From assembly GCA_002839645.1 (NCBI GenBank), contig PGYL01000005.1, positions 1-64,000 on the forward strand: 64,000 nt of DNA, written 5' to 3'. The DNA is from Methanomicrobiales archaeon HGW-Methanomicrobiales-2 (GTDB taxonomy: Archaea; Halobacteriota; Methanomicrobia; Methanomicrobiales; Methanoculleaceae). Below the pieces are notes generated by a model. It had not been told where the DNA came from and made no database searches. It saw nothing but the letters and a program-made list of their open reading frames with translations. Position 1 is the stretch's first letter. The number at the start of each line of letters is the position of its first letter. This document shows, one piece after another, positions 18,984 through 22,823 of this stretch. The position numbers were made by a program, and so were the translations under genes.

Positions 18984-20351
18984 TTGTCGAAAGTTGTACA
19001 GATTTCCCCAACAACGAGACATGAAGGCCATTCAAAGCTCGTTCTGAAGGTCAACGATGAAGGCATCGTCGAGCGTGGAGACTGGCTCAGCATCACCCCG
19101 GTCAGGGGTGTCGAGAAACTCGCCATAGGCAAGACGATGGATCAGGTTCCAAAGATCGCATCACGCGTCTGCGGTATCTGTCCTATCGCGCACACCCTGG
19201 CGGGTGTCGAGGCGATGGAAGCGTCCATCGGGTGCGAGATCCCCGAGGACGCAAAACTCCTGCGTTACATCCTGCAGTGTGCCAACAGGATGCACAGCCA
19301 CGCCCTTCATAACATCCTGTCCCTCCCGGACATGTACCTTCCCGGAACCGACGTAAAGATCAACCCGTTCACCAAGGAAGAACCGGTCAGAACCGTTGCC
19401 CTCCGGATCCAGCGGATCCGTGAGATTGCACAGACCATCGGCGAGATCGTCGGTGGAGAGGCAATCCACCCAAGCAACCCCCGTGTCGGCGGCATGTACA
19501 AGAACATCAGCCCCCGTGCAAAGGCAAAGATTTACGACCTCGCGAAAGAGGCCCGGGTTCTCACGCAGGAACAGATGGAGTTCATGATCGCGATCTTCCG
19601 GAACTACCAGAAGCGCGACTGGGCTGAAGTCGGCGGCGTCCAGGTCCCGATCACGAAGGATCTCGGCTACCACAACCAGGGCTATATGGCCACCGCACCG
19701 GTCTACGGCAGCTCGAGCCTTGATGAGACCCCGATGTGGTTCCCCGAGCGGTTCACCGAAGTCCGCCCCTGGGACTGGTACATGGGCGAAGTCGAGATCG
19801 ACGAAGCCGACCCGAACTACCCGATCGGCGGCACCACCCCCGTAGGGGACAAAGCCTGGCCCCAGATGGAAGCCTGCACCGGTGTCCCGCTCTATGACGG
19901 CCAGCCCGTCGAGGTCGGACCGCGTGCACGCCTTGCCCAGTTCAAGAGCTACAACGAGAAGGGCGCCATCGGCCTGCAGATCGCACGCCAGATGGAGTTC
20001 CCCGAGACTGCTTACGGTATCATCGACGCGCTCGACGCGCTCGACACTTCCGCATCGGTGCTCGCGGACAACATCCCGCAGGGCGACGGATCCCTCGGAT
20101 GGGCCGCGAACGAAGCGCCCCGTGGAACCGATGTCCACCTTGCCAAGGTCAAGGACGGCCGGGTGCAGTACTACGGAATGCTCGTCCCGACCACGTGGAA
20201 CTTCCCCACCTGCAGCCGTGCACTGACCGGTGCACCCTGGCGGCTCGCGGAAGTCATCATGCGTGCATACGACCCCTGTGTCTCCTGTGCGACGCACATG
20301 CTGGTTATCGACGAAGACAAGAGACTCGTGGCCCAGAAACTCATTCAGTGA
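18984..20351 (+). CDS. frhA: Coenzyme F420-reducing hydrogenase subunit alpha
   Basis: RVCGICPIAHTLAGVEAME and DPCVSCATHM Ni-binding motifs; TTG start codon after TGAGGCGAT. Confidence 0.95.
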   Translation: MSKVVQISPTTRHEGHSKLVLKVNDEGIVERGDWLSITPVRGVEKLAIGKTMDQVPKIASRVCGICPIAHTLAGVEAMEASIGCEIPEDAKLLRYILQCANRMHSHALHNILSLPDMYLPGTDVKINPFTKEEPVRTVALRIQRIREIAQTIGEIVGGEAIHPSNPRVGGMYKNISPRAKAKIYDLAKEARVLTQEQMEFMIAIFRNYQKRDWAEVGGVQVPITKDLGYHNQGYMATAPVYGSSSLDETPMWFPERFTEVRPWDWYMGEVEIDEADPNYPIGGTTPVGDKAWPQMEACTGVPLYDGQPVEVGPRARLAQFKSYNEKGAIGLQIARQMEFPETAYGIIDALDALDTSASVLADNIPQGDGSLGWAANEAPRGTDVHLAKVKDGRVQYYGMLVPTTWNFPTCSRALTGAPWRLAEVIMRAYDPCVSCATHMLVIDEDKRLVAQKLIQ

Positions 20352-20361
20352 GCGTACACGC

Positions 20362-20922
20362 ATGCTATTCCGTGAGATCGTGATCGCAGGGTGCGGCAAC
20401 CCCCTCTACGGAGACGACGGGTTCGGCCCTGCAGTCGTCGAAGAACTCCAGAAGTTACAACTGCCCGACAACGTCAAGGTATTCGATGCCGGCCTTGGCG
20501 CCCCTCACTTCCTCTTTACGCTGATGGAAGATGCAGAGGCGCCAGTGAAGAAGCTGATCATCATCGATGTCGCCGATTTCGGCGCTAACCCCGGTGATGT
20601 GACAAAGCTCCGGCCCGAAGACCTGCCGCCGGGTGCCTACCGGGATGCCCATTCATGGGACCTTTCCGAGCCACTGCAACGACTAAAAGACATCATTGAC
20701 ATCACGATCATCGGGTGCCAGCCGAAGCGTGTCGCGACCCAGGAGTTTGAACTAGGGCTCACTGAGGAGGTTGAGGGTGCCATACCCAAAACAGTGCGTA
20801 TCGTACTGGAGGAAATTGGGGTAGAATATGGGGCTGCTATCAACCATCAAGGAACGCATCTTTGGGCGTCGCCCGGAGAAACCGCCGGAGAACCCGGAGG
20901 CAAAACCGGAGAGCAAACCTGA
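20362..20922 (+). CDS. frhD: F420-reducing hydrogenase maturation protease FrhD
   Basis: IVIAGCGNPLYGDDGFGPAVVEEL; position between frhA and frhG; C-terminus overlaps the frhG ORF by 95 nt. Confidence 0.92.
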   Translation: MLFREIVIAGCGNPLYGDDGFGPAVVEELQKLQLPDNVKVFDAGLGAPHFLFTLMEDAEAPVKKLIIIDVADFGANPGDVTKLRPEDLPPGAYRDAHSWDLSEPLQRLKDIIDITIIGCQPKRVATQEFELGLTEEVEGAIPKTVRIVLEEIGVEYGAAINHQGTHLWASPGETAGEPGGKTGEQT

Positions 20923-21925
20923 GGTGAAACCAGCGGCGAGCCAACCGCAGACGAAGCCAGAGGTGAAACCTGAGGCAAAACCTGAGGCAAAGCCCGAGGC
21001 GAAGACTGCGAGAAGTAAACCGCACAGAAAACCTGAGGAAAAGCCGGAGGTGAAACCGGAGGCAAAGCCTGCTGCAAGCCAGCCGCAGGCGAAACCCGCG
21101 GTGAAGCCCTCTGATGTGAAGGTAAACGAAAAGGTGGAAGTTGTACAAAAGGAGGAAAAGCCTGTGGCAGAAAAGATTTCGATAGGTGAATTACACCTGA
21201 GCGGATGTACGGGATGCCTCGTGACGCTTGCGGATAACTACGAGGGTCTCTTCAAGCTGCTCGATGATTATGCGGACCTGGTCTATGCGTTGACCCTGGT
21301 CGATGTGCGCCATGTCCCCGAGATGGACGTGTGCCTGGTCGAGGGTTCGTGCTGTCTGAACGACAAACTCTCGGTAGAAGAACTGAAAGAAGCAAGGGCA
21401 AAGTCGAAGGTGCTCGTCGCCTACGGCGCCTGCGCAGCATACGGCAACATCACCCGGTTCTGCCGGGGCGGCCAGTGGAACCAGCCCGGTCACGAAGCGT
21501 TCGTGCCGATCAGCGAGGTCGTCGATGTCGACCTCTACATCCCGTCCTGTCCCCCGTGCCCGCAGCAGGTCAGAAACGTCGCCGTCATGGCCTACCTGCT
21601 TCTGAAGGGCAACGATGAACAGAAGAGCCTCGCGACCGCCTACCTGACGCCGCTGATGCAGCTTGCACAGCGCGGCAACGAGGCCTGCGGCTGCGATCTG
21701 ATGTATGATGTGATCAACCAGAGCCTCTGCATGGGATGCGGAACCTGCGCCGGCACCTGCCCGGTCCGCGCCATCACCATGGAGTACGGCAAGCCGAACG
21801 TCAACCGCGACCAGTGCATCAAGTGCGGCGCTTGCTACGCGCAGTGTCCGCGGAGCTGGTTCAACTTCGACGTCATGAACAACTATGAGGGCATCATGGG
21901 TGCCATCAAGGGAGCCATGCAGTGA
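20828..21925 (+). CDS. frhG: Coenzyme F420-reducing hydrogenase subunit gamma with PEVKP-rich N-terminal extension (canonical body starts near GTG 21164)
   Basis: KISIGELHLSGCTGCLVTL...; two 4Fe-4S motifs LCMGCGTCAGTCP and CIKCGACYAQCP; about 112 codons of PEVKPEAKP-type repeat upstream in frame. Confidence 0.92.
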   Translation: MGLLSTIKERIFGRRPEKPPENPEAKPESKPEVKPAASQPQTKPEVKPEAKPEAKPEAKTARSKPHRKPEEKPEVKPEAKPAASQPQAKPAVKPSDVKVNEKVEVVQKEEKPVAEKISIGELHLSGCTGCLVTLADNYEGLFKLLDDYADLVYALTLVDVRHVPEMDVCLVEGSCCLNDKLSVEELKEARAKSKVLVAYGACAAYGNITRFCRGGQWNQPGHEAFVPISEVVDVDLYIPSCPPCPQQVRNVAVMAYLLLKGNDEQKSLATAYLTPLMQLAQRGNEACGCDLMYDVINQSLCMGCGTCAGTCPVRAITMEYGKPNVNRDQCIKCGACYAQCPRSWFNFDVMNNYEGIMGAIKGAMQ

Positions 21926-21935
21926 GGTGAGAAAG

Positions 21936-22823
21936 ATGGACGTACTCGGTAATTACAAGTCCGCTATCTCGGCACGCTCGACCGACAAGGACATCACAAA
22001 GAAGTCCCAGGACGGCGGTATCATCACGACGCTCTTCGCGTACGCGCTTGAAGAGGGCATCATCGACGGTGCCATCATCGCAGGTCCGAGCGACGAGCCC
22101 TGGAAGCCGCAGCCCATGGTCGCGACCACGAAGGCAGAACTCCTGGCCGCTGCCGGAACGCGCTACACCATCAGCCCGAACCTCTCCCTGATCAAGGAGG
22201 CGACCCGCAGCTACGGTCTCGACCGCGTCGGTATCGTCGGTACCCCCTGCCAGATCCAGGCTGTCCGGAAGGCTCAGCTCTATCCGATCGGCATGCGCGA
22301 CGTCGACGACAAGATCGCTCTTGCGCTCGGCATCTACTGCATGGAGAACCTCTCCTACCAGGCGCTCGAGGCAATCGTCGAGGACCACTGCAACCAGAAG
22401 ATGGAATCCGTCAAGAAGATGGACATCGGCAAGGGCAAGTTCACGGTCTACACCGAGCGCGGTGCAGTCAGCCAGATGCCCTTAAAGCTGATCCACAAGT
22501 ACGTGCAGCCCGGCTGCAACGTCTGCCTGGACTATGTCGCGAACCTCGCCGACATCTCCAGCGGCTCCGTGGGCAGCCCCGACGGCTGGAGCACGGTCTT
22601 CGTGCGGAGCATGAAGGGCAACGCGGTCTGGGACGGCGCTATGGCGGCCGGCCTCTTCGAGACGAAGCCGATGGACCAGGTCAAGCCCGGCCTCGACCTC
22701 GTCAAGAAGCTCGCCACCGAAAAGATCACGAAGAACCAGAAGAACGTGGACGCACGTAAAACGATCGGCCTCAAGGCGGACGGAACCCCCAAGGGTCTCC
22801 GGAACCCCTACGAGTCCCCCTGA
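21936..22823 (+). CDS. frhB: Coenzyme F420-reducing hydrogenase subunit beta
   Basis: MDVLGNYKSAISARSTDKDITKKSQDGGIITTLFAYALE; GIVGTPCQIQAVRKAQ; QPGCNVCLDYVANLADIS. Confidence 0.95.
   Translation: MDVLGNYKSAISARSTDKDITKKSQDGGIITTLFAYALEEGIIDGAIIAGPSDEPWKPQPMVATTKAELLAAAGTRYTISPNLSLIKEATRSYGLDRVGIVGTPCQIQAVRKAQLYPIGMRDVDDKIALALGIYCMENLSYQALEAIVEDHCNQKMESVKKMDIGKGKFTVYTERGAVSQMPLKLIHKYVQPGCNVCLDYVANLADISSGSVGSPDGWSTVFVRSMKGNAVWDGAMAAGLFETKPMDQVKPGLDLVKKLATEKITKNQKNVDARKTIGLKADGTPKGLRNPYESP

Follow-up and report, generated by a model that had tools for sequence, protein, structure and literature searches.

Results

The gene for the small subunit of the F420-reducing hydrogenase, frhG, appears to carry two translation starts in one reading frame. 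The internal start is marked by a ribosome-binding motif and a GTG codon that are kept as nucleotides, and the upstream start opens a long frame that begins with a conserved short peptide. We favour, as the probable explanation of this dual-start gene as a whole, that the longer product serves to tether the hydrogenase. The locus lies in a window, that is, the whole analysed stretch of 64,000 nucleotides, from Methanomicrobiales archaeon HGW-Methanomicrobiales-2 (PGYL01000005.1).

Two candidate starts in the frhG frame

The genes are arranged in the order frhADGB on the + strand (18984-22823; Table 1), as judged from the order of the open reading frames, with frhA backed by PF00374 and frhD and frhB named by position. 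Direct reading of the sequence places the frhG ATG at 20828, the beginning of the FrhG body (KISIGELHLSGCTGCL) at 21173 and the end of the stop codon at 21925. The body is thus preceded by 115 codons, and 112 codons separate the ATG from an in-frame GTG that follows the motif AAGGAGG after a spacer of 8 nt. An earlier, sequence-only reading of this DNA had described the 112-codon in-frame extension, the AAGGAGG (21149-21155) and the GTG (21164), and all of its coordinates are right. The upstream part reads MGLLSTIKERIFGRR, followed by a K/P/E/A-rich stretch with PEVKP and KPEAKPE units and then by VQKEEKPVAE. The body (residues 116-347) scored 367.8 bits against TIGR03294, the equivalog cut-off of which is 245.5, and the hydrogenase body was the sole match in a fold search. 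The closest relatives of this frhG belong to Methanoculleus, with body identities of 92-97%. The 3' end of frhD overlaps the start of the long frhG frame by 95 nt (20828-20922); the overlap amounts to 14-164 nt in most relatives, so that the C-terminus of FrhD is extended in many species, and there is none in Methanocorpusculum.

Table 1. Positions of the frh genes and of the frhG elements in the window
Feature	Position	Strand	Basis
frhA, large subunit of F420-reducing hydrogenase (predicted start)	18984..20351	+	ORF list; PF00374 matches C35:19104-20297
frhD, maturation endopeptidase	20362..20922	+	ORF 20230-20922; named by position
GGGGT, a weak SD-like motif preceding the upstream ATG	20818..20822	+	Sequence; upstream SD pairing mean -7.4 kcal/mol
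frhG long frame, 365 aa	20828..21925	+	Sequence, ORF list, TIGR03294
Start peptide MGLLSTIKERIFGRR, conserved; helix predicted for residues 3-12	20828..20872	+	Conservation; AlphaFold2
Linker rich in K/P/E/A, disordered, with PEVKP/KPEAKPE repeats; its length varies greatly among relatives	20873..21148	+	Sequence, relatives, AlphaFold2
AAGGAGG, internal Shine-Dalgarno (SD)	21149..21155	+	GAG 128/128, 0 changes; AAG 122/124
Putative internal start codon (GTG) for short FrhG, 253 aa	21164..21166	+	GTG 129/129 with Val here, 0 changes on tree
FrhG body, hydrogenase small subunit and ferredoxin domain	21173..21922	+	TIGR03294; solved relatives 6qgr, 3zfs, 4omf, 9r51
frhB, F420-binding subunit	21936..22823	+	ORF 21885-22823, internal ATG 21936; named by position in frhADGB

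The internal start is kept at the nucleotide level

Codon changes were counted on a tree of 131 distinct frhG bodies. At 21164, 129 sequences encode Val, every one of them by GTG and with no synonymous change on the tree, compared to 16-31 changes in each of 11 other conserved Val columns of frhG and a median of 20 over 135 conserved columns. Val is missing in the remaining two, L178 and L123, both of them divergent second copies of the gene. This conservation is convincing because GTG is a minority Val codon, used for only about a quarter of the Val codons of the body. The Glu codon within the internal SD is likewise invariant (GAG in 128/128, 0 changes), the Lys codon of the SD is AAG in 122 of 124 sequences, and the Pro codon in the spacer between the SD and the GTG is solely CCT or CCA. 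It should be noted that a few other columns are near-invariant through frequent codons (Gln CAG, Phe TTC), so that the conservation of AAG alone would be unconvincing. The internal start is predicted to pair more strongly with the 16S tail (-9.9 kcal/mol) than the upstream starts do (mean -7.4 kcal/mol), and both starts are predicted to be weakly folded, with means of -4.5 kcal/mol for the GTG and -5.7 kcal/mol for the ATG versus -10.6 kcal/mol at random body positions. From these sequence comparisons, we conclude that the putative internal start is under selection as DNA.

Codon bias and protein constraint were rejected as reasons for the retained GTG, given the changes in the other Val columns and the Methanosarcina loci where the frame is shifted but the nucleotides remain. 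An internal promoter in place of an internal start was also rejected, the linker DNA being unconserved and the promoter scan empty, but with bacterial models only. No Rfam family was found.

Regarding Methanosarcina, the upstream part of the gene is decaying there, and MGLLNSxKK... is still in frame in some species. The motif AAGGAG and the GTG are kept in L106 (the same gene as L159), where a stop stands just ahead of the SD, in L109 (L158) and L110 (L162), which have lost the start peptide, and in L167, which has an in-frame stop upstream; the start nucleotides AAGGAG...GTG are also kept in L161 and L164, where the upstream frame is shifted. At the M. barkeri-like locus (L150) the start peptide is lost through an upstream frameshift, and the annotated form, MVVMENKAEATKEKKP, is the one carried by PDB 6qii. 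There are Methanosarcina copies in which the internal GTG is the only usable start. The chain of the M. barkeri structure 6qgr begins with TNKIKIG, its Thr directly following the GTG-encoded residue, and for M. marburgensis the authors of the structure put the FrhG start at an internal GTG, 38 codons in (PMC3591093). Taken together, the Methanosarcina losses with AAGGAG...GTG kept, 6qgr and the M. marburgensis assignment indicate that the internal start works in relatives. These observations suggest that short FrhG is the standard subunit, and we have little doubt that the product of the internal AAGGAGG-8nt-GTG is an ordinary small subunit and probably the bulk product. The proposal of two starts made by the sequence-only reading is thereby strongly supported, both by nucleotide-level selection on the GTG and its SD and by the natural loss of the upstream part in Methanosarcina.

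The upstream frame is retained throughout the order

The search covered 150 Methanomicrobiales genomes, and loci were read in 131 distinct sequences, 108 of which lie outside Methanosarcina. Long open frames stand ahead of the FrhG body nearly everywhere in the 150 genomes, and all complete main copies share a common anatomy, namely a start peptide of the MGLLSxLKxxxFG type, a variable linker, KEEKPV(GTG)AxKI and the body. The start peptide (consensus MG(L/I/W)LSxxK...) measures 13-15 residues, the linker about 20-110 residues and the whole extension 34-124 residues across relatives, with a KEEKPVAxKI-like junction. When FrhG N-termini were compared across Methanomicrobiales, the upstream frame was unbroken in all complete main copies. 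An upstream in-frame start is missing in just 2 of the 108 non-Methanosarcina sequences, far fewer than chance would leave, one at a contig end (L006) and the other a divergent second copy (L178), and frames that seemed short were contig ends where checked (G075 as L052; G057). As no complete main copy in Methanomicrobiales has a broken upstream frame, it is very probable, on comparative grounds, that long FrhG is made in this order. The predicted two-start layout is universal in Methanomicrobiales; among relatives that serve as laboratory models it is partly lost.

The f14 genomes (Methanocella-like) combine peptides of the MGIFDKVKGI type with an internal GTG. In the f7 relatives (L117-L120) the frame opens with another peptide (MSPFWKK), and GGAGGTGA is followed by an internal ATG; this may be a two-start plan of the same kind built from other parts. 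Divergent second frhG copies were observed in family f3: L123 (G008; 61% identity) has the start peptide and Thr in place of the internal GTG, L178 (G056; 61% identity) has an ATG at the internal-start position and is without the extension, and L180 (G032) has a different peptide (MQRISNIFKK) and keeps the GTG.

A conserved start peptide on a fast-evolving linker

The start peptide and the internal start are the conserved elements of this region and the repeats are its least conserved part; the peptide is an element that the sequence-only reading had not singled out. Synonymous differences exceed nonsynonymous ones in the start peptide (pS > pN) in four separate groups, with pS and pN of 0.121 and 0.046 in Methanocorpusculum and of 0.275 and 0.129 in the Methanolinea/Methanoregulaceae-type group, a pN/pS that is moderate in a peptide partly overlapping frhD. 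Conservation merely through the frhD overlap was ruled out by Methanocorpusculum, where the peptide is kept and the overlap is absent. Some families have a very short version of the peptide (MGLLSRIFGKK), and the mean hydrophobic moment of the peptide (0.34) is not significantly above that of shuffled sequences (0.29; median p 0.32).

A model of the start peptide matched FrhG alone in this genome (next best E 0.5) and nearly FrhG alone, in 47 of the genomes, when 61 were searched. A tag common to many proteins is ruled out by these near-exclusive matches, and no clear gene was found at two weak extra ones (G008:C40 and G041:C26).

For long FrhG, AlphaFold2 predicted a helix over residues 3-12, with a low pLDDT of about 59, then coil without predicted structure over residues 13-116 and the known fold from residue 117. 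The linker consists to 91% of K, R, E, D, P, A, Q, S, T and V, and its net charge is near zero. Such an anatomy is that of a peptide carried by a flexible arm. Its repeat, a local Methanoculleus expansion of the linker, is weak in the DNA (period 12, 13.9 copies, 62% matches). In 15 Methanoculleus relatives the linker frame is open, the other two frames holding 44 and 32 stops, and its dN/dS is 0.55 versus 0.09 for the body, a poor conservation that fits a spacer. As had been remarked, most differences between the two PAASQPQ copies are synonymous, and the claim drawn from this, that the repeat is translated and selected, holds in its first half: translation is well supported by the conserved frame and start peptide, whereas the repeat as a selected element is not supported and was rejected, this being the fast-evolving part (linker dN/dS 0.55). 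Similarly, the tail had been described as unusual; this is true when the solved model enzymes are the reference, but the order as a whole shares such a tail.

Discussion

We propose that initiation at the internal AAGGAGG-8nt-GTG would give short FrhG, an ordinary hydrogenase small subunit, and that initiation at the weaker upstream ATG, located in or just past the end of frhD, would give long FrhG, i.e. the same body with a hydrophobic/basic helical start peptide of 13-15 residues on a flexible arm of 20-110 residues. Twelve FrhABG units make up the hollow shell of Frh (PMC3591093), and with two forms of FrhG a few arms per shell would be expected. Long and short FrhG may co-assemble in this 12-fold shell, a minority of arms then displaying the peptide, and the start peptide would tether the whole soluble complex to a fixed place. 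The object held is most likely the 1.2-MDa Frh shell, at the membrane or at a partner. The most likely target would be the inner face of the cell membrane, a choice that we make tentatively; otherwise a partner such as the HdrABC-MvhD complex may be the target, with a lower probability. Frh has long been recovered in the membrane fraction, a finding that the same review credits to the size of the complex (PMC3087415). The membrane assignment stays tentative because the amphipathicity of the start peptide is not significant, and the need for a tether is questioned by several Methanosarcina species that live without the peptide.

Long FrhG might instead be a docking arm for electron bifurcation that couples Frh to MvhD-HdrABC in Methanomicrobiales without MvhAG. 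A FrhAG-MvhD-HdrABC complex, for which the docking element is not known, has already been proposed (PMC6019823; PMC3087415), the arm is found throughout the order and is being lost in Methanosarcina, and in the present genome MvhD adjoins the HdrA and HdrB genes apart from any hydrogenase gene. However, a divergent VhuA/VhuG-like pair in this same genome (C62) makes the premise of a missing MvhAG less clean, and the taxonomic coincidence is confounded by descent; we regard this role as unlikely, though worth keeping in mind. That only short FrhG matters, the upstream frame being a leader for translational coupling with frhD and the long protein incidental, would agree with the much tighter constraint on the internal start and its stronger SD, with the M. 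barkeri and M. marburgensis enzymes starting at or near this start, and with the repeated loss of the extension in Methanosarcina. Yet coupling requires neither an open in-frame stretch of 35-125 codons nor conservation of an MGLL..K..FG peptide. Every complete main copy in the order still has the frame intact after many changes of length, and the start peptide persists in Methanocorpusculum, where frhD does not overlap. A mere leader is therefore quite improbable in our view. Least probable of all is an assembly or interior scaffold, in which the arms of long FrhG would lie inside the shell and aid assembly or hold something: a long flexible arm would suit the dodecameric hollow shell (PMC3591093), but Methanosarcina and Methanothermococcus assemble Frh without an arm, and filling space calls for no short hydrophobic/basic end peptide.

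Extended to the order, the tethering explanation would mean that Methanomicrobiales, and probably the f14 genomes too, build Frh shells of mixed composition, a few long FrhG subunits bearing a dedicated address peptide on arms of species-specific length, that Frh is fixed at the membrane or at heterodisulfide reductase, and that the long:short ratio set by the two starts tunes the site of H2 oxidation. We put forward this wider picture with reserve.

Several known systems can be compared to this arrangement. In CcmM of beta-carboxysomes, the short form M35 arises by internal initiation. As proposed for FrhG, one protein occurs here in two lengths (M58/M35), the short form being more abundant and the long form bearing an extra attachment region (PMC8580825). 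CcmM is nevertheless an unrelated protein of another complex, and what M58 has in addition is a folded domain rather than a short peptide on a disordered arm. SepF, MinD and FtsA have a short terminal hydrophobic/basic membrane-targeting helix on a flexible linker next to a soluble body. Long FrhG resembles them in its short hydrophobic/basic terminal helix, flexible linker and soluble body, but it is not homologous, its amphipathicity is not significant, and only part of the FrhG product would carry the helix. FRHG of Methanothermococcus thermolithotrophicus likewise has an N-terminal addition, seen in the structure, which differs in being a short folded beta-hairpin on FrhA, without start peptide, linker or second start (PMC12596923). 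FrhG of M. barkeri (6qgr) and M. marburgensis (3zfs/4omf) is the same subunit with the same body and an internal GTG start in both; these differ in the start peptide lost by frameshift at the M. barkeri-like locus and in the 38 upstream codons of M. marburgensis that the authors judged to be outside the protein (PMC3591093). Internal in-frame starts that give two isoforms are of a kind already known; the case of FrhG appears undescribed, and no earlier description of a dual-start FrhG was found in searches of an open-access library, although one may exist elsewhere.

Frh feeds F420H2 into methanogenesis, and the two-start gene touches on two questions in the literature, the electron route from H2 to Hdr in Methanomicrobiales without the standard Mvh and whether Frh is located at the membrane (PMC6019823, PMC3087415). 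If some of the Frh subunits bear an address peptide that is conserved and can be removed, both become directly testable. If the dual start is true, the annotated FrhG N-termini mix two products, and the solved Frh structures would have missed the arm, either through the choice of species that are without it or through its dismissal.

Two other loci of this genome encode related components. The genes for HdrB, an HdrA2-like protein and MvhD lie together on G000:C59 (L195:610-4112); the HdrA2-like protein is without the C-terminal MvhD part, and the next gene supplies MvhD. The divergent [NiFe]-hydrogenase pair lies at G000:C62 33456-35738 (L194:1957-4238) and encodes proteins of 455 aa and 306 aa with an unassigned 187-aa neighbour; the best matches of the pair are VhuA and VhuG, both below the cut-offs.
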